Shown here: in pieces, positions 1 through 21,882 of the stretch
How positions within the stretch are numbered: position 1 is the stretch's first letter
Layout: each line of letters begins with the position of its first letter
Source: a virus
Strand: one strand, 5' to 3'
Virus record (IMG/VR): IMGVR_UViG_3300032282_001575
Coordinates: 1 to 24,695 of that record
DNA: 24,695 nt
The notes under the pieces: generated by a model
Database searches by the model: none
What the model saw: the letters and a program-made list of their open reading frames with translations, nothing else
Told to the model about the DNA's origin: nothing
Program-made: the position numbers and the translations under genes

Positions 1-1284
1 ATTAACAACATCATGAATAATTGCCGAAGCGCCAGTAACTAAACCAATCAAACGTTTACCTATTGCATATGTAAAATTATTTGCATTGGTTGCTACACTA
101 ACGTTGTCAATGATAATTCTTGGAAAATCTGGATAAACTCTATATGCGCCAAGGTTTCCTGTTAAGGAACCATTGAACATAATTTTACCATAGTTAGCAC
201 TATTATCTGTAAATGATATGTTATTATTAACCTGTACAGAAGTAGCCGAAAGAAGTGCGCTTACCTTTACAATTTGTGAATATGAAAAAGTATTGGTAGC
301 GAAATAGATAACATCATTAACAGAAAACACAGAAGAATCTGGAACACTAATAGTGTTAGCGCCAGAAGTAGTAACTACAGATTGATTTGCAGTCGAAACA
401 CTTGCGTTAGCGCCAGAAGTTAAATCATAAAGTTTTTTTGATGTTGAAAATGCAGAAGATATATTTGCAATTTTAAACGTTCCAGAATTGTTAGCCAATA
501 TACCCGATGTTAAAACTACTCCGCCTGGAGTATTGTCAACTGTTTGATAAACTGTATCACCAGTATTAAATGTACCATTTATACCAGCTACAGATAAAGC
601 TGCTACAGGAAAATTATATACAAAAGAACCATAATTAAATTTATCTGTTGTTGGATATAATGGTTCGCCAATATGGTAGTCGCCAATTACTCCAGTAAGC
701 TCTAAGTAGTCTTCATCAGGAGATCTAATTACAGCTTGGCCACTTGTTACTGGCGTTCCTGTATTATCTACAAAATTTGCTATGTAAATATTAAACTTCA
801 TGTCTTCTGTAATAACAGGTATCCAACTTAAATCATTCGATGATAGAAACAAATCACCAGTATCATTATTTGTAGAAATAGCATTACTATTCGATACGTC
901 TGTCTGGCCGATTTCAGCAGTCCAAACTTCGTAATCTGGATTACCACCAAGTGGGATAAGGACGATAGCGTAAGATTTACCAGATTCAACAAATACTGGA
1001 GTATCAAACACGAACCTAGTTCCAAAATTAGCAGTATCGCTTGATCTTAAAGTATTTTCTGCAGTAACAGATGGTGGAGGTACAGTTGACACAGGATATA
1101 AAATTTTAGAACCAAAAGGCAAACGTTCTCTTGTAGGAACGCCGTTTAATGTTGTTCTTATTTGTAATTCAATACCATATACAGAACTTATAGATTTAAA
1201 AAATATATCAATTTTAGTAATGAAAATGCCAGGCACACCTGTAGCAGATTCATTAACATAAAATGTTTGAGCAATTGGTTTCAT
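1..1284 (-). CDS. Baseplate/tail structural protein, C-terminal half of a DUF4815-type protein (partial)
   Basis: The frame is open from an ATG at 1284 to the window edge (428 codons, no stop), so the 3' end is missing. The first ~130 residues (MKPIAQTFYVNES, then GIFITKIDIFF, GKSYAIVLIP) resemble the segment that, in T4-like marine phages, follows the DUF4815 region within a single long virion protein. Here it has its own start, an AAAGGG Shine-Dalgarno about 9-14 bases upstream, and a late-promoter-like box at 1311-1318. Around residues 234-262 a small beta module (GTFNTGDTVYQ) resembles modules in the gp8-like protein; the rest is Ser/Thr/Asn-rich, as in fibrous tail proteins. The role is probably structural, at the baseplate periphery. 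That it is the detached second half of the neighbouring gene's family is inference from remembered family members, not from a search. Confidence 0.75.
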   Translation of the reverse strand, partial: MKPIAQTFYVNESATGVPGIFITKIDIFFKSISSVYGIELQIRTTLNGVPTRERLPFGSKILYPVSTVPPPSVTAENTLRSSDTANFGTRFVFDTPVFVESGKSYAIVLIPLGGNPDYEVWTAEIGQTDVSNSNAISTNNDTGDLFLSSNDLSWIPVITEDMKFNIYIANFVDNTGTPVTSGQAVIRSPDEDYLELTGVIGDYHIGEPLYPTTDKFNYGSFVYNFPVAALSVAGINGTFNTGDTVYQTVDNTPGGVVLTSGILANNSGTFKIANISSAFSTSKKLYDLTSGANASVSTANQSVVTTSGANTISVPDSSVFSVNDVIYFATNTFSYSQIVKVSALLSATSVQVNNNISFTDNSANYGKIMFNGSLTGNLGAYRVYPDFPRIIIDNVSVATNANNFTYAIGKRLIGLVTGASAIIHDVVN

Positions 1285-1310
1285 ATTTGTAATACCCTTT
1301 TGATTTTAGA

Positions 1311-1318
1311 TATTTATT
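1311..1318 (-). promoter_or_regulatory. Late-promoter-like box AATAAATA upstream of the partial structural gene
   Basis: The minus strand reads AATAAATATC, one mismatch from the T4 late consensus TATAAATA recognised by the gp55 sigma factor. It lies 27 bases upstream of the ATG at 1284 and physically overlaps the TAA stop (1314-1316) of the Hint-bearing gene. The same ten bases occur in the divergent spacer at 21873-21882. In AT-rich DNA such 8-mers also arise by chance, but the position just before a start codon matches the other three copies. Confidence 0.5.
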
Positions 1319-4300
1319 TCGCAAAACACATAGTAGTACCAACCACCTTAGCAAATGATTTTATAATTTTTCTACCAATAGTTTCTTCTACTAACATACC
1401 AGTAAAAAATTTAGTAACGTACTTATTGTTTATTTTTCCAATTAATTTGTTAAGCAAATACATACCATGAACTGTTGATTTACCTAATTCAATATAATAA
1501 TACATAAGTTCTATAGCTTTTTGTTCTGTAATCAAACCATCCTCAACAGCCAAACGTAGTAGCCCACCATCACCAATGATGGAAGAAGTACCGAATCCAT
1601 TTACAGTGTAAGTACCATCACCGTCTACCCAAAGGTTATATACTAACTGGTTAGAAGAATTAACTATTGAATCTACTTCAATTTGTTTGTTTTTACCAAG
1701 CCATGGATACCAAGTTAAGTTTTTGTCTGGATCAACACCGTGTAATTCGCCATCAAAATACAGTGGATGATTAACAGTAGCGAATGGAGCAAATTTAGAT
1801 GTTGGTGAATAAAGCTTTTCGAAATATTTATCATTTACAACTTCAATAAATTTAACAGTATTTACTGTAGTTTTATCATGGTTGTATACCAAATCTCCAA
1901 TTTTAACTTCATTGATTGGTATTTCTTTACCAGAAGCTAACATAACAAGTGTAGAACTTATGAAACATCCACATCCACAACCACCACCACCACCAGAACC
2001 TGGTGGTGGATTAAGAACAATTGCTTGGGTAACGTCTGTTGAAACTCCAGTACCATTAAGAGTAAATGTATCACTTTTTACTTCAGATGAACTGATAACT
2101 GTAGATCTAGTATTTAATAGAGATTGACCTTGCGCAAGAGTCAATGTTCTTCCATAATAGATAGCATCAGCTTCAGTTGTTATTGCAGAAGCACCCTGAG
2201 TAAGATCAGAAATATCAATAAGCTTAAATTCTAATTCTCCAGCTTCAAAACGAGCGCCTTCTATATTAGGTATAGAAAATATACCATGAATATATCCTGT
2301 AGAATCAGTTTTTAACTGTGTGCCAAGAACATTTGTATATGGCGGTTGATTTTTTTTAGGGTCGAGATAATCATATCCAGCAGTCATTTGATCTGCAGTA
2401 ATTTGAGCACACCAAGCTGAAACATTTGTATTATTAAAATACGCATAAACAATAGTGTCTGGCTTCATACCATGAGCTTCAAACTGGATAGTAGCAGCTG
2501 GAATAAATGGTGTTAAACTTGCGCTCTGTAAAAACGTACCAATATTTAATGTGTCTTTTTGTTCGCCCGAAGTTGATAGTCTATTACCAATAGCCTGCAT
2601 AATAGACTGAGTAGTTTGAAGTGTCTGGGTGGTTGTAGTAGTTTTAGTACCACCATAAGATCCGCCTTCGCCGCCAGCAGCAAGAGTTTCTGATTCTGAT
2701 GCAGAAGCAGAAATAAGTGTATCTGTTGCCTTTGTGCTTATAGTTTGCCAATTGTTCCACTGAGTACCCCAAGCATTAACCAAGTTAACCCAATTTGAAT
2801 AAAGATCAATGTTATTTTTAATTACTGGGTTATTGGTAATCGAAGGAGCTGTAGCGCCTGAAGGCGTAAGCTTGATTGTACCTTTGTGGTTGTAAATATT
2901 ACCTTCAATGCAATTACGATACTTAGAAGCATACTTTTGGCTTATATAAAGATTGTTAGATGTATGTTTAAGCATAACAAGTTCACCAGCCTGTACAACG
3001 TTCGAACTTGCGCCAATATCTACAGCAAATTCTGAACGAAGCTGGAAAAACGCTGGTCTTAATTCTGTTCTATCCCCATCAATAGAAATATTAAAGGATG
3101 CATCTTTTGTGTTAGAAAGATCGAATCCATTAAATCCGTCAACAAAAATACCATTTTGGAATCTTGTTTGACCTGTTGAAGAACTTCTTACTTGTAAAGC
3201 TGCAGCTGACTGTTCAAGTACAGACAATGAGGTATAATATTCAAGATTTTTAATTCTATTATCAATACCACTAATATCTTTCATAGTATATCTTCTCTGC
3301 TGAGAAACTTTTGACAAGATAGCGTTATCGTAACGACTTAAAGATCTAGCTTCATTAGAAGTTAGCGAAGGATATGGTGGGATAGACAATACAGATAGTG
3401 TCATTGTCTTTGGTAATTCGATTGGTGGAGGAGGATTTGGTGTAGTGCTTGGCAATCCTTCCTTAATAATAACATTACCATTAATATCTAACATAACTCT
3501 ATCAGTTCTGTAAAGATAATTTTCAACGTCTGTTAGGAACAAACTATCTGGTTTTGGTAGATAAGGTGTTGTTGAAAATGTCAGAGTTGATGATGGATTT
3601 ACAGGCGTAGCAGATCCAATAACTGTTGTTATAACAGCTGTGTTTGTAGCATATGGTCTAAAATCAACAACGTTTCTAAGATCATAAAAGTTACCACTCT
3701 TTGTTGTAAAGGTTGGTATATCTAAAATTGTTATTGTTGAAGATGTTGCTACATCTGAAATTGGATAAGAATTAGCTGTAAAGAATCCTTTACCTTCGCC
3801 AGAAGGATATGAGAATGCAGACAACTTAACAAGAATTGTTGCTGTTTTACTTAAACCAAAAGAACCATTTTTAAGAACAAGACTAGCTAAATCATAATGT
3901 GATTCTCTTTGACCATTATCCAAAGTAAAGTTGGTTAAATAATTTGTGCCCTCAGCATAGGTTCCAGAACCGATATATACACTATCGATACTAAGAACAT
4001 CTGGTAATCCTAAAGACCATGGACCAATATTCTTATTTGGGTGAGAAGAACAATCGATTTTTACATAAATGCCCTTGTTAATCTGTTTTGTTATTGGTTT
4101 AGCGCCAGCTCTGTTAATTGCTGCATCAACTTGAACAGTAAATGAAGTATTAACTGTTTCACCAAGATTGATTGTTAAGATAGTTCCAGAACTATCAACA
4201 TTCATTGATCTTGCTGGTCTGTTTCCGAAAGGAATTGGTACGCCAGCTGGGAAAGCTTTCTGGTGATTTTTATTAGTTACATCTGCATCAAAAGCAGCAT

Positions 4301-6551
4301 CTACCTGCATAAACACATCATTGGCGATAGAAACAATTTCTCTAATTGTTGTAGAGTCAATGATAATAAAATCACCATTGGCGTAATCAGTTGAGAAAGA
4401 TGTAGCTGTACAAGCATATATGTAACCTACATTACCAGTAAATGTATGTGTTTCTCCGGCTCCAGTTCTTGTTTCGAAAATATTAAGATTTGGGCCACCT
4501 GTACCAGTAGAAAGAGCAATGTCTGTTGAGTTAGCAAAAGAAACATAATAATATGTGTTACCTGTCAAACCACCGACAGCTGTATTTCCTGTTGGAACAG
4601 CGTAATAAACTTTATCGCTTGGACGAAAACGATTTGACGCATTAGACATTTTAATGGTGTCAGCTGTAGAATTAACACCATTAGTATTAGCGGTAATAGC
4701 TATTCCTACAGAATCCCAATATTGTACGCTACCAGTTTTATTTCTAGAATATGAGTTACTAGTAGGAATAACAATAACATCATTCATCTGACTTGATGAT
4801 AAAGTTGTATCAGAACCGTAATAATATGTATCATTATAAGAAACGCCGCCAGGAATAGTAATTGTCGCTTGGCCAGCAGCATTAGCTGTCAACGAAGCAT
4901 TAAGAGGAATACTTCCAACGTTTCTATAATTAAAATTTATAGATCCAAAACCATCAGACTTAATAGCTTTTTGACCGAATGGAAAAAGCATAGTTTTAAG
5001 AGTAGAACTGTTAATATCTGCATAATAACTTGAAGTTCTGCCATTATATGTTAAAACAATGTCAGCGACTGCTTTAACACTACCATCATAATATATGATA
5101 CTTCTAACATCATTAAAACTATAACCATCATTTAGTATATCGTTAAACAAATAAAGTCTGTACTGACAATCAAATGTTCCTTGAACGCCATTGTCATAAA
5201 CAAAAGATTTTATATAAGCTGTACCTATTTTTGTTGTAGAAGAATAACCACCATTTACGCCAGCTGTAAATGCATGTGTAGATAAAGCTTTTTTAGATAC
5301 ATTATGCAACTCTACTTCTATTATTGAAGTAGAGTTGTTAAAATTACCAGATAATTCATTTACTAAAGCATAATAACCTAAATTCAACGAAACACGCTGC
5401 CCAGGTAAAGCAGCATAATCAGTGCCTCTTCTTGTTTTTATCGCATTAGAGTTAATGAATTCTACTCTATGCCCCTCAACATATCCAATGCCTTTTCCAA
5501 TAATTGTATTGAAATGTGTAGCATAATCTGGGTCTGTTGTATCTGCTATTGTTTTAGTAGAAACATCGAAAGGATATACGACAAAATTACCACTTGTTTC
5601 GAATGTTCTTTTAGCTTCTTCTAAAGTTACAGAATTGAATTGTGTATCGTTACGAATAGTAATAGGTTGACCAGATTTAAAATCTACCAATGAGAAAAAG
5701 GTTGTTTTGTTTATGTCGCTAGTTGTTTTTGTAATGAGAGTTGGTGTTATTTTTAAACGATCAGCGCCTGGGGCTGTATAATTTGGAGAACCAGCAGCAT
5801 TATCAAATAATGTTTCGTCAGCATTAGAAGTAACCAAAGATTCGATTGCTTCAAACCCAACAGAAATATTGTCTGGTATATTAGTATATTTGCTGATAAC
5901 TGCTGTTTGAGGAGCTACGTAAATAAAGTAGCCTTTCTTAAAAATAATACCTGAAGTTGTTGTGAACGCATATCCCAATCCAGTAGTGTTTGAAACTGTA
6001 GCTGCTACAACATTACCTTGTGAAATTCCTGCTTCGGTATAAAATGATAAAGTTTCACCAGGATCAAATGTTGACTGCTGCGAACCATTTGAATAAAGAG
6101 CGCTATTTCTATATTTTATGTAGATAGTATTTAAATTTACACCGTCTGATACAAGACCAGGAAGTGTATTAACAATAGTAGCTTGTAGATTAGCTGCGTT
6201 TTTAACAATCAAACCCTGTAAATCAGTAATAGTCAAAGCTGTAGTATTTGAATAAGTGTCACTCAATTTAACATAATTATATGCATTATCAAAAGTAAAA
6301 GCGCAGCCTTTGATAACAGAACCTTCTTTGTAAATATTTTGACCAAAAGAAGCAATTTGATTTTGGAGGATAGTTTGTAGCTGGTTTAATTCTCTTACTT
6401 GTACAGCTGTACCTGGCTTAAAAAGAACTTTGTAATACTGCTTTGTAGCATCAAAATCGTCAAAATATGGACTGATATTTAAATCAGTATCCAACATTGT
6501 TGGAATTCCACCATCACCAGTTTGATTTGCAGGTATTGTTAATGTTGCCAT
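1314..6551 (-). CDS. DUF4815-type baseplate/tail structural protein with a C-terminal Hint domain
   Basis: This 1745-residue virion protein starts at an ATG preceded by AGAGGAAATAAT, a strong Shine-Dalgarno. Residues 1-100 carry the DUF4815 signature (ISPYFDDFDA, VRELNQLQTILQNQIASFGQ, YKEGSVIKG). About residues 650-685 hold a beta insert (GGLTGNTYYYVSF). Residues ~1085-1130 hold a helical stretch (DISGIDNRIKNLEYYTSLS) typical of the family. After LNTRSTVISS the chain enters a Pro3-Gly-Ser-Gly5 and Cys-Gly linker and then a Hint domain from Cys1529. About 80 mostly helical residues follow. Related proteins I recall have no Hint and continue straight into the sequence found here in the next gene. 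It is probably a peripheral baseplate or fibre-anchoring subunit. It follows gp8 by 8 bases, so the two are likely cotranscribed. Confidence 0.85.
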   Translation of the reverse strand: MATLTIPANQTGDGGIPTMLDTDLNISPYFDDFDATKQYYKVLFKPGTAVQVRELNQLQTILQNQIASFGQNIYKEGSVIKGCAFTFDNAYNYVKLSDTYSNTTALTITDLQGLIVKNAANLQATIVNTLPGLVSDGVNLNTIYIKYRNSALYSNGSQQSTFDPGETLSFYTEAGISQGNVVAATVSNTTGLGYAFTTTSGIIFKKGYFIYVAPQTAVISKYTNIPDNISVGFEAIESLVTSNADETLFDNAAGSPNYTAPGADRLKITPTLITKTTSDINKTTFFSLVDFKSGQPITIRNDTQFNSVTLEEAKRTFETSGNFVVYPFDVSTKTIADTTDPDYATHFNTIIGKGIGYVEGHRVEFINSNAIKTRRGTDYAALPGQRVSLNLGYYALVNELSGNFNNSTSIIEVELHNVSKKALSTHAFTAGVNGGYSSTTKIGTAYIKSFVYDNGVQGTFDCQYRLYLFNDILNDGYSFNDVRSIIYYDGSVKAVADIVLTYNGRTSSYYADINSSTLKTMLFPFGQKAIKSDGFGSINFNYRNVGSIPLNASLTANAAGQATITIPGGVSYNDTYYYGSDTTLSSSQMNDVIVIPTSNSYSRNKTGSVQYWDSVGIAITANTNGVNSTADTIKMSNASNRFRPSDKVYYAVPTGNTAVGGLTGNTYYYVSFANSTDIALSTGTGGPNLNIFETRTGAGETHTFTGNVGYIYACTATSFSTDYANGDFIIIDSTTIREIVSIANDVFMQVDAAFDADVTNKNHQKAFPAGVPIPFGNRPARSMNVDSSGTILTINLGETVNTSFTVQVDAAINRAGAKPITKQINKGIYVKIDCSSHPNKNIGPWSLGLPDVLSIDSVYIGSGTYAEGTNYLTNFTLDNGQRESHYDLASLVLKNGSFGLSKTATILVKLSAFSYPSGEGKGFFTANSYPISDVATSSTITILDIPTFTTKSGNFYDLRNVVDFRPYATNTAVITTVIGSATPVNPSSTLTFSTTPYLPKPDSLFLTDVENYLYRTDRVMLDINGNVIIKEGLPSTTPNPPPPIELPKTMTLSVLSIPPYPSLTSNEARSLSRYDNAILSKVSQQRRYTMKDISGIDNRIKNLEYYTSLSVLEQSAAALQVRSSSTGQTRFQNGIFVDGFNGFDLSNTKDASFNISIDGDRTELRPAFFQLRSEFAVDIGASSNVVQAGELVMLKHTSNNLYISQKYASKYRNCIEGNIYNHKGTIKLTPSGATAPSITNNPVIKNNIDLYSNWVNLVNAWGTQWNNWQTISTKATDTLISASASESETLAAGGEGGSYGGTKTTTTTQTLQTTQSIMQAIGNRLSTSGEQKDTLNIGTFLQSASLTPFIPAATIQFEAHGMKPDTIVYAYFNNTNVSAWCAQITADQMTAGYDYLDPKKNQPPYTNVLGTQLKTDSTGYIHGIFSIPNIEGARFEAGELEFKLIDISDLTQGASAITTEADAIYYGRTLTLAQGQSLLNTRSTVISSSEVKSDTFTLNGTGVSTDVTQAIVLNPPPGSGGGGGCGCGCFISSTLVMLASGKEIPINEVKIGDLVYNHDKTTVNTVKFIEVVNDKYFEKLYSPTSKFAPFATVNHPLYFDGELHGVDPDKNLTWYPWLGKNKQIEVDSIVNSSNQLVYNLWVDGDGTYTVNGFGTSSIIGDGGLLRLAVEDGLITEQKAIELMYYYIELGKSTVHGMYLLNKLIGKINNKYVTKFFTGMLVEETIGRKIIKSFAKVVGTTMCFAK
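1563..1967 (-). other. Hint (Hedgehog/intein) domain coding segment
   Basis: This segment encodes residues 1529-1663 of the 1745-residue protein. Block A begins Cys1529-Phe1530 and contains TLVMLASGKEI and VKIGDLVYN. Block B is ATVNHPLYFDG, with the TxxH pair Thr1592 and His1595. The last block is VYNLWVDGDGTYTVNG followed by GTSSIIGDGG. Known inteins have a His before TY and end in His-Asn plus a Cys/Ser/Thr; here those positions are Gly and Gly-Thr-Ser. The N-to-S acyl shift chemistry therefore looks possible, but Asn cyclisation and splicing do not. The junction Gly1528-Cys1529-Phe1530 matches the Gly-Cys-Phe autocleavage site of Hedgehog proteins. The downstream helical tail (residues 1664-1745) is part of the same gene. 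There is no homing endonuclease insert. Confidence 0.85.
1987..2009. repeat. GC-rich perfect hairpin in the linker before the Hint domain
   Basis: A 10-base inverted repeat, CCACCACCAG and CTGGTGGTGG, is separated by three bases. On the coding (minus) strand it encodes the Pro-Pro-Pro-Gly-Ser-Gly linker ending about 20 bases before the Hint cysteine codon. It arises from CCA proline codons facing GGT glycine codons, so it may be a codon-choice by-product. It is still far more stable than the surrounding AT-rich DNA. No T-run follows, so it is not a rho-independent terminator. Confidence 0.8.
5307..5337. repeat. Perfect 12-bp inverted repeat with a 7-base loop inside the DUF4815 gene
   Basis: CAACTCTACTTC (5307-5318) and GAAGTAGAGTTG (5326-5337) are exact reverse complements around a TATTATT loop. 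The repeat lies inside coding sequence (residues ~405-415, STSIIEVEL), about 1.2 kb from the start of the gene. No T-run follows on the coding strand, so it does not look like a terminator. It could be a structured mRNA element, a protein-binding site or chance. Confidence 0.8.
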
Positions 6552-9820: not shown

Positions 9821-9828
9821 TATTTATT
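9821..9828 (-). promoter_or_regulatory. Late-promoter-like box AATAAATA upstream of the gp8-like gene
   Basis: The minus strand reads TTTAATAAATATTC in the 40-base gap between the fibre-like gene and gp8, 25 bases before the gp8 ATG. It is one mismatch from the T4 late box and shares TAATAAATA with both copies at the divergent spacer. This gap is one of the few in a tightly packed block, which favours a real promoter. Confidence 0.55.
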
Positions 9829-15778: not shown

Positions 15779-16078
15779 TTATCCTACTACGTTTATAAGT
15801 GAATCGCCGGTTTCGGCAAAAGGAGCGCAGTGCGCTCCACCTGGTATTGGACATAAAGCATCTGGTGCTGCTGGATCACCAACTACGACAACTGGAATGC
15901 CATTGATTGTAATAAAAGTTGCAAGCGTTGATGTCAAAGCGCCTCCTCCATGGCTATCTAAATCACCACTTACCGCCCAAGGTTGACCATCAATTAGAAC
16001 TAAACCTATTTGCCCTGGCCCTGGTACTGTTGATGCCCCGCAAGCTCTAAAATCTCCAATTCTGTGACAAAATGGCAT
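15779..16078 (-). CDS. PAAR-type spike tip protein
   Basis: 99 residues with the PAAR pattern: short beta strands, many Gly/Pro, MPFCHRIGD at the start, DGQPWAVSGDLDSHGGG (30-46) and VVVVGDPAAPDALCPIPGG (63-81). His5, Cys13, His43, Cys76, His83 and Cys84 are candidate metal ligands; PAAR tips usually bind Zn through His and Cys. The protein caps the beta-helix spike and forms the membrane-piercing point. In T4 the tip is gp5.4. Location fits: directly after the beta-helix spike gene and before gp25. A GGATAAA Shine-Dalgarno lies just before ATG. Confidence 0.88.
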   Translation of the reverse strand: MPFCHRIGDFRACGASTVPGPGQIGLVLIDGQPWAVSGDLDSHGGGALTSTLATFITINGIPVVVVGDPAAPDALCPIPGGAHCAPFAETGDSLINVVG

Positions 16079-16085
16079 TTATATT

Positions 16086-17051
16086 TTATCCTTGTATAAA
16101 ATTTACTAAAGTAGAAGTTACATTTACTTCATCCGCAACTGTATCAACAAATCCCGCACTATTTAACAACACTCCTGCTTCTCCTGCAATAGTCGTTTGT
16201 GAACTATTAATAATTGCAGTGCTAACAGCATTTACACTAATTAATCCACCTGCAGAAGCAAATAAAGCGCCAGCTGAAGTAATAGATATTAAAGGAGCTA
16301 CTATTGATATACCAGCTGGTGTTATATCAATGATAGAAGCGCCTACTTGTAATCTAATATTTGTTAAACTAGTTATGCGAATGGGGGATGGAGAATTTGC
16401 TGACATCATACCACCAGAATACAAATGCATTTCTCCAGCTTCTACAGAAACATCCATGTTACCACTTTGGACGTGGATGCCGTATTCGCCTTGACCTACC
16501 ATAACATGTTTATTACCTTGTACAGATTCTACATGGTCGCCTTCGTTTGCCATATGAACATGTCCACTGTGTAAATGAACAATGTTACCATTAGAAGTTG
16601 CGTATGTATCGCCTCCAGTATTATTGTTAAAAGATCCTTCGCCGCTTCCACCAATTTCTTTTTTAGCAGTTCCATTATATTTGTTATTACCAGTTACAGA
16701 ACCAGTATCTTTTTTATAATCTTCGTGACGATTTTCTCCACCTGCAGAAGCTGAATTTTGATCTACTTGTTCGCTTTTACCTTTACCAACATATTCTCTA
16801 CGATGTCCAAGATCATGTTCGCTCGTATGAGCCAGCTCTAAATCTGAATATTCAGTTGTTTTCCAAGATCCATCAACGCTCTGTTTTTCACTCCAAGACT
16901 TAGTAGGATCTGTATGATCTTCATGAAATATTTCCATTCTACCATTTTTAGAAAGAAAACCTGTCATGTTCGAAGCAATAGCGTTTTCTGTTCTCACAGC
17001 AGGCGAGTCGCCAAGTTTTTTTGTTTTATCCGGATCTGTTTTAGTTACCAT
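16086..17051 (-). CDS. Beta-helix spike protein (gp5 C-terminal domain-like)
   Basis: 321 residues. Residues 1-150 are polar and His/Asp/Lys-rich (EIFHEDHTDPTKSW, TSEHDLGHRREY). Residues 150-215 show alternating short strands and turns with many His (HLHSGHVHMANEGDHVESVQ, GNKHVMVGQGEYGIHVQSGN), the pattern of the intertwined triple beta-helix of T4 gp5 and VgrG spikes. The C-terminal 100 residues are hydrophobic repeats (GISIVAPLISITSAGALFAS) that should continue the helix towards the PAAR tip. It is encoded between the OB-fold hub protein (one-base gap) and PAAR (seven-base gap). The separate gene means that the spike is built from at least three polypeptides here, unlike T4 gp5. The spike role is inferred from repeat pattern and context. 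Confidence 0.75.
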   Translation of the reverse strand: MVTKTDPDKTKKLGDSPAVRTENAIASNMTGFLSKNGRMEIFHEDHTDPTKSWSEKQSVDGSWKTTEYSDLELAHTSEHDLGHRREYVGKGKSEQVDQNSASAGGENRHEDYKKDTGSVTGNNKYNGTAKKEIGGSGEGSFNNNTGGDTYATSNGNIVHLHSGHVHMANEGDHVESVQGNKHVMVGQGEYGIHVQSGNMDVSVEAGEMHLYSGGMMSANSPSPIRITSLTNIRLQVGASIIDITPAGISIVAPLISITSAGALFASAGGLISVNAVSTAIINSSQTTIAGEAGVLLNSAGFVDTVADEVNVTSTLVNFIQG

Positions 17052-21858: not shown

Positions 21859-21866
21859 AATAAATA
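21859..21866 (+). promoter_or_regulatory. Late-promoter-like box AATAAATA for the rightward block
   Basis: The plus strand reads GTAATAAATACA, one mismatch from TATAAATA, 34 bases before the gp4 ATG at 21900. It is one half of a back-to-back pair in the only divergent spacer of the window. Confidence 0.6.
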
Positions 21867-21874
21867 CATAAAGA

Positions 21875-21882
21875 TATTTATT
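21875..21882 (-). promoter_or_regulatory. Late-promoter-like box AATAAATA for the leftward baseplate block
   Basis: The minus strand reads CTAATAAATATC, 36 bases upstream of the gp48 ATG at 21839. It lies 8 bases from the plus-strand box. Because the minus box lies to the right of the plus box, the two predicted transcripts overlap at their 5' ends. Confidence 0.6.

Follow-up and report, generated by a model that had tools for sequence, protein, structure and literature searches.

The 24,695-base virus record IMGVR_UViG_3300032282_001575, called here the window, carries T4-like baseplate genes on its minus strand, and among them a baseplate protein of the DUF4815/phrog_358 family is encoded by two adjacent open reading frames (ORFs), the first of which ends in a Hint domain followed by a helical tail. 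To judge from sequence, this terminal Hint with its tail is a coherent, distinct type, a module not described before that turns up repeatedly on structural proteins of viruses across metagenomes. The reading that we favor, by a modest measure of confidence, is that it acts as a bacterial-intein-like (BIL), self-cleaving C-terminal module, which frees the mature N-terminal part of the baseplate protein (N-part) from the tail; the C-terminal part (C-part) comes from the second gene. The two genes are placed as follows, from profile matches:

1314..6551, minus strand: P0001, 1745 residues, the N-part of the DUF4815/phrog_358 baseplate protein with a C-terminal Hint and helical tail.
1..1284, minus strand: P0002, 428 residues and cut by the contig end, the C-part of the same protein, with the N-terminus M-K-PIAQTF.
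772..1278, minus strand: conserved domain of P0002, residues 3-171; the same domain follows the junction in intact relatives.

A first-pass annotation had proposed that a protein of 1745 residues with a DUF4815 start ends in a Hint domain and that the next gene encodes the rest of the same protein, and both proposals are borne out. P0001 matches the DUF4815 Pfam profile (PF16075) at 8e-45 and phrog_358 at 1e-221 over profile columns 2-1239 of 2056, while P0002 matches phrog_358 at 1e-42 over columns 1423-1741, as well as phrog_877 at 783-935. A single solved chain, PDB 9euf_0 ('DUF4815 domain-containing protein', 1152 residues), is matched by both in the correct order, by P0001 at residues 79-249 and by P0002 at 835-945. 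Since both proteins match phrog_358 and 9euf_0, they represent two portions of a single family. A single polypeptide is the usual, not universal, state of this family, as in the cultured phages HTVC008M (2001 residues), phiM19 (1802), SKML-39 (1612), and S-SM2 (2519), and all four of these single chains contain the junction motif DP[LI][AS]Q[ST]F, which agrees with the D-P-(L/I/V)-A-Q-(T/S)-F sequence that the annotation had given. The window instead has two ORFs, 29 nucleotides (nt) apart, an arrangement also found in the members of its clade. A frameshift or assembly error as the cause of the split was rejected, since the split is common to seven clade members and the promoter-like box between the genes is conserved.

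The boundaries of the Hint were taken from an alignment of 28 relatives (A1) and an AlphaFold model, and the C-terminal region of P0001 is laid out as follows:

1968..2012, minus strand: linker leading into the Hint, residues 1514-1528 (NPPPGSGGGGGCGCG), rich in Gly and Cys within the window's clade.
1965..1967, minus strand: codon of the predicted catalytic Cys1529; the predicted scissile bond, presumably cleaved, is G1528-C1529.
1581..1967, minus strand: Hint domain, residues 1529-1657, with Cys1 at C1529 and the block-B Thr and His at T1592 and H1595.
1317..1565, minus strand: C-terminal helical tail domain, residues 1663-1745.

Pfam recognizes only the first ~45 residues of this Hint, weakly (0.0005-0.006) and under its cut-offs, and the terminal module as a whole is under-detected by Pfam. 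The AlphaFold model of residues 1521-1745 (predicted local distance difference test 91.9, predicted template modelling score 0.87) contains a complete Hint and a helical tail. The modelled Hint lies closest to BIL2 of Tetrahymena (Z 15.9, root-mean-square deviation 2.2, 127 residues), with further matches to the gp41-1 intein (Z 12.8), a Clostridium BIL (12.4), Vint, and Hedgehog (11.5), and on this model the domain can confidently be assigned the Hint fold. Cys1529, T1592, and H1595 occupy the canonical N-side positions, and they give the pattern of the Hint superfamily, Cys or Ser at position 1 together with a block-B TxxH. At the other end, Ser-Ser (1656-1657) stands in place of the intein His-Asn, and the tail then follows. 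The domain consequently lacks what marks an intein (C-terminal His-Asn with Cys, Ser, or Thr at +1) and what marks an A-type BIL (C-terminal His-Asn with no +1 nucleophile), the latter being present in its one-ORF relatives, and it resembles, by motif pattern only, a B-type BIL, which has the intein motifs minus the C-terminal one. By the established chemistry of Hint domains as a class, it should be able to form an N-side thioester, but it has no Asn for a C-side cut or splice.

Relatives of the window Hint were found on ~70 viral contigs of the 2.9 million searched and on one contig of a metagenome-assembled genome; all Hint-bearing relatives found are metagenomic. Nearly all of the ~70 carry the tail, the exception, L073, being of an internal type described below. 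Complete terminal copies sit at the end of their ORF with the tail last, and the tail, which holds an invariant Gly, is conserved in every complete protein of the terminal type. Identity to the window copy falls to about 36%; Cys1, the block-B Thr, and the His are nevertheless invariant in 53/53 non-redundant complete terminal Hints, and His-Asn is absent. The module is carried by DUF4815 proteins, by gp5-like proteins of the baseplate hub (phrog_694, ~1e-29), by further structural proteins of the virion, and by small unknown proteins. Many phage structural proteins bear added beta domains, and this one might be just such a retained structural or adhesive domain, no longer reactive, as the loss of the terminal His-Asn throughout the type could suggest. 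We consider this doubtful, since three invariant catalytic positions in so divergent a family would be hard to explain without catalysis. The same invariance, in a coherent family with its own tail, argues that the window Hint is not a decayed intein.

In the favored reading, that of a self-cleaving module, Cys1529, helped by T1592 and H1595, would convert the G1528-C1529 peptide bond to a thioester. With no terminal His-Asn, a second cut and splicing would both be absent. Water or a small nucleophile would then resolve the thioester, leaving a mature N-part that ends in ...GGGGGCGCG-1528 and releasing the Hint together with the helical tail from it, the simplest outcome. Before release, the tail would probably aid folding or assembly, as S74 chaperones do on tail fibers. 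The C-part, made separately from its own late promoter, would combine with the N-part as a second baseplate subunit, and this two-subunit arrangement would replace the one chain of relatives. The homology, the split, the domain boundaries, the predicted fold, the invariant catalytic residues, the missing His-Asn, and the reappearance of the module on further virion proteins are established by the analysis; we infer the in vivo cut of the predicted bond, water as the attacking group, and what the tail does. BIL domains without the C-terminal motif still cleave on the N-side (PMC7765530), BIL domains mainly perform cleavage (PMC7664689), and Hint chemistry of the Hog class has been described (PMC2362128).

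The slot after the DUF4815 N-part holds a Hint plus S74 in L122 (PF13884, 4.6e-8) and S74 alone in L179 (1.9e-9), which suggests that the purpose of the slot is to carry a self-releasing C-terminal assembly module. Likewise, the presence of the terminal module at the C-terminus of unrelated virion proteins, the gp5-like hub and others, fits release of a tail better than the joining of two specific halves. A Hint followed by a Peptidase_S74 chaperone, that is, two self-cleaving modules in series, was seen in L086:8442-8771 (S74 under the Pfam cut-off) and L122:5597-5851.

Several results weigh against release of an assembly-aiding tail. The invariant residues speak for selection on the site and not for any particular fate of the thioester. 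For the tail, searches gave no fold match in the PDB (Foldseek, best E 8.4; VIA, Z 2.8), no Pfam match, and no recognized chaperone homology, and its comparison with the 'VICT' helical tail that follows other Hints gave an hhalign probability of 0.8%, within the range of shuffles, which reached 0.94%. Moreover, the collection of isolated phages searched yielded none with a terminal or Lys/Arg-type virion Hint; the matches there are remote and lie mostly in helicase and other non-virion genes. Among PDB sequences, the tail weakly matches 6sxj (0.003).

A second, internal Hint type keeps His-Asn, and 80 further loci were collected for it. Cys1 is present in 99/99 non-redundant copies and His-Asn in 97/99, the latter count being partly due to the selection of full-length matches. 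At +1 (n=116) stand Lys (90), Arg (23), and Thr (1), never Cys or Ser; the residue preceding Cys1 is Ser, Cys, or Thr in 69/116 (A3 loci, L079-L157). In DUF4815 proteins this Hint sits exactly at the junction within a single ORF, which runs from the N-part through the Hint (Cys1...His-Asn, then mostly Lys/Arg) to the C-part, as in ...AHN-K-DPLAQSF (L073), ...VHN-K-DPIAQTF (L095), ...AHN-R-DPVAQSF (L114), and ...VHN-K-PIAQSF (L215). L215 can be paired with an empty counterpart, GGG-[Hint]-K-PIAQSF against GGGGG-D-PVAQSF in L235, with 62% identity before the Hint and 61% after it. By their motifs, the His-Asn Hints between N-part and C-part, with Lys or Arg at +1 in 113/116, would be expected to act as in cleaving A-type BILs.

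Hints of this type also form tandem arrays, up to four copies ahead of the junction in L080 and L094, and in another protein, that of L050, up to six His-Asn copies precede a terminal Hint. Proteins with 4-7 Hints in tandem lie at L050:1574-7087, L042:1476-8669, L025:1-2361, and L080:2523-11582; neighboring copies often abut as ...VHN-K-CF..., and the last copy is of the terminal type in L042, L050, and L025. A third Hint-like domain (CF..GT..EM.DG...KGG) is C-terminal after a His-Asn Hint in L107:8433-8960, L124:6888-7286, and L140:7339-7815. Another tail, probably helical and starting [IV]C[TS][AEK][LM], follows His-Asn Hints in L111:8439-8798, L116:6316-6669, L143, L148, L106, and Pelagibacter phage HTVC033P, and has no confident Pfam or PHROG family.

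How Hints and the gene split are distributed was assessed in 97 DUF4815 loci for which both ends are present; the way in which these were collected enriches them for Hints. These comprise 32 with one ORF and no Hint, 22 with one chain and a His-Asn Hint, 29 split with a terminal Hint, 7 split with a His-Asn Hint, and 7 split without a Hint; a terminal Hint in one ORF with the C-part occurs in none of the 97. Among the 22 one-chain loci (non-redundant, metagenomic), three have an N-part that is interrupted elsewhere, and two contain frame breaks. A sample drawn independently of Hints gave, among 55 readable loci counted by eye, about 42 intact, 10 split without a Hint, and 3 with a Hint. The raw association of terminal versus His-Asn Hint with split versus one ORF is strong (29:0 versus 7:22, Fisher 6e-10) and is mostly due to shared ancestry. 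Across the tree, Hint type and split are in accord in 4 informative independent pairs and in conflict in 0 (p 0.125, not significant), and for any Hint versus split there are 0.4 pairs for and 0.5 against. L090 and L093 were rejected as split Hints on account of frame breaks and left out of the split counts; in L093:4770-4800, a 25-nt tandem duplication breaks the frame inside the Hint. In L002, L003, L041, L045, L022, L130, L133, L153, L155, and L156, the DUF4815 N-part is spread over at least two genes at another place, with no Hint there.

The first-pass annotation had a Hint element enter the junction, after which the C-terminal half became a separate gene, and it offered as one cause a splicing intein that decayed there, so that failed splicing forced the split. 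Entry at the junction gains support from the Hints found there in other members of the family and from the L215/L235 pair, with and without a Hint, among the metagenomic relatives. In the window's lineage, either the Hint or the split may have come first. L159 and L163, both split without a Hint, and L162 attach to the window clade (L001-L004, L006, L038, L039; 97*) at 99*, and the next branches are one-ORF phages without a Hint. Just outside the clade, L159-161 and L163 have separate N- and C-genes and no Hint; because these close outgroups are split, the Hint is not needed for the split. The annotation itself took relatives with two separate genes and no Hint as counting against its proposal, and these four are in part such a case. 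Decay of an intein could draw on the one-ORF junction Hints with a full His-Asn (L073, L095, L096, L114, L215) and on L162, in which the N-part and Hint end ...AHNK-stop beside a separate C-gene. We regard it as very improbable, since the window Hint type looks intact, the nearest outgroups are split without a Hint, the related one-ORF Hints have no splicing nucleophile at +1, and the split lies elsewhere in other clades, namely ~170 residues earlier in the L007 group and inside the preceding domain in L031, L065, L070, and L072, compared with the junction itself in the window clade.

In trees built from quick searches, the terminal type forms one side of a single branch (100*) of the Hint tree, with at least 3 switches of host protein, and it needs 9 changes on the DUF4815 tree, 7 of them forced by starred branches. 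Such movement would be expected of a C-terminal module that is selfish or hitch-hiking and travels by recombination, its processing serving just to render it harmless to the host protein, and the state is a minority one, any Hint being found in only ~3/55 readable Hint-independent DUF4815 loci. This explanation seems quite unlikely to us: no homing endonuclease was noticed beside the module, and its occurrence in the whole of the window's clade, together with a conserved tail of its own, points to a use.

Hint domains can also join proteins to other molecules, and Hedgehog attaches cholesterol. The thioester at C1529 might be attacked, in place of water, by a lipid or by an amine that belongs to a Lys of a neighboring baseplate protein or to the C-part's N-terminus, leaving the N-part covalently attached. 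We take this to be unlikely. In its favor, the closest fold, BIL2 of BUBL1 (Z 15.9), attaches a ubiquitin-like protein through an isopeptide bond to Lys (PMC8616854), and the Hint has a conserved domain after it, just as Hog has its sterol or adduct recognition region (PMC2362128). Lys stands at +1 in 90/116 related Hints, and the start of the C-gene in the window clade, M-K-PI[AG]QTF, resembles HN-K-PIAQSF of L215. However, Arg at +1 in 23/116 is incompatible with a Lys isopeptide bond and weakens the case for this Lys as an obligatory nucleophile, the K before PIAQTF also occurs in L159-161, which have no Hint, and many hosts of the terminal module have no evident split partner gene. In a specific form, which seems to us less likely still, the terminal Hint would serve as a device for covalent assembly, its thioester passing the N-part to an amine of another virion protein or of the separately encoded C-part and so giving a cross-linked or re-ligated baseplate without ATP; if true, the tandem and terminal Hints would form a series in the evolution of viral modules for protein ligation.

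Production of the C-part as a separate subunit is consistent with the region between the two genes:

1311..1318, minus strand: AATAAATA box, T4-type late-promoter-like, overlapping the P0001 stop codon and conserved in the window's clade.
1295..1300, minus strand: Shine-Dalgarno-like AAAGGG, 10 nt before the ATG at 1284, conserved in relatives.

The seven clade members have [AC]ATAAATA ~27 nt before the start of the C-gene together with an AAAGGG-like Shine-Dalgarno, so the annotation's claim of signals belonging to the C-gene stands, and L160, a split relative without a Hint, has TATAAATA at the box position. Exact AATAAATA sites in the window fall in gaps directly upstream of genes in 4/6 cases, which besides 1311 (-) are 9821-9828 (-), 21875-21882 (-), and 21859-21866 (+). 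Similar sites show no overall enrichment in number (107 found versus 122 expected), their position in gene gaps being the one notable feature. The boxes are likely to be the late-promoter element of this phage, and a promoter-like box of the C-gene's own is credible. The other baseplate genes on the minus strand encode gp25, gp6, gp8, gp53, gp5-OB, tube-cap, and PAAR-like proteins; a 140-residue ORF antisense to baseplate genes at 16072-16494 (+) is probably not a gene.

Hints on phage proteins are already known as annotations ('Hint domain containing protein', uncultured phages, BFVD), and BIL chemistry is known; a literature search found no paper on this module, its junction, DUF4815 in phages, or virion Hints. 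What is new here is the terminal Hint and tail module on virion proteins and the A-type-BIL-like Hints at one baseplate junction. If cutting is confirmed, contractile-tail baseplates would recurrently mature by intein-type chemistry, and not by a protease or an S74 chaperone. One family also offers a natural series, from no Hint through a Hint in one chain, tandem Hints, and a split with a Hint to a split with a terminal Hint, which makes the mutual replacement of a self-cleaving domain and a gene split directly testable. The terminal module, with its unrecognized tail domain, has no counterpart among the isolated phages searched.

Among known systems, both window genes are members of DUF4815/phrog_358 (VrlC; PDB 9euf chain 0), from which the window differs in having two genes, the first with a C-terminal Hint. 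The one-ORF phage Hints share Cys1, the block-B His, the C-terminal His-Asn, and the lack of a +1 Cys or Ser with the A-type BIL of Clostridium thermocellum (PDB 2lwy), which the L073 Hint matches at 8e-8, but their hosts are conserved virion proteins, where they keep to one fixed junction, often as tandem arrays and with Lys or Arg at +1 (113/116), and the window Hint lacks the His-Asn. The window type has the same motif pattern as the B-type BILs, which keep N-side cleavage with all intein motifs except the C-terminal one (PMC7765530); likened to them by motif pattern alone, it differs in its conserved helical tail and its place on phage baseplate and virion proteins. BIL2 of Tetrahymena BUBL1 (PDB 6y75/6tmm), the closest fold, is located between ubiquitin-like domains and keeps its terminal Asn, whereas conjugation by the window Hint is hypothetical. 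Hedgehog Hog (PDB 1at0) likewise combines a C-terminal Hint with a conserved region, for sterol recognition, and uses N-side chemistry only (PMC2362128), but its fold match is lower (Z 11.5), the searches run found no relation to the window tail, and the window module has no known adduct. Finally, the Peptidase_S74 intramolecular chaperones are self-releasing C-terminal modules that occupy the same slot in DUF4815 relatives; they belong to another family with another chemistry, and their likeness to the window module is one of analogy.

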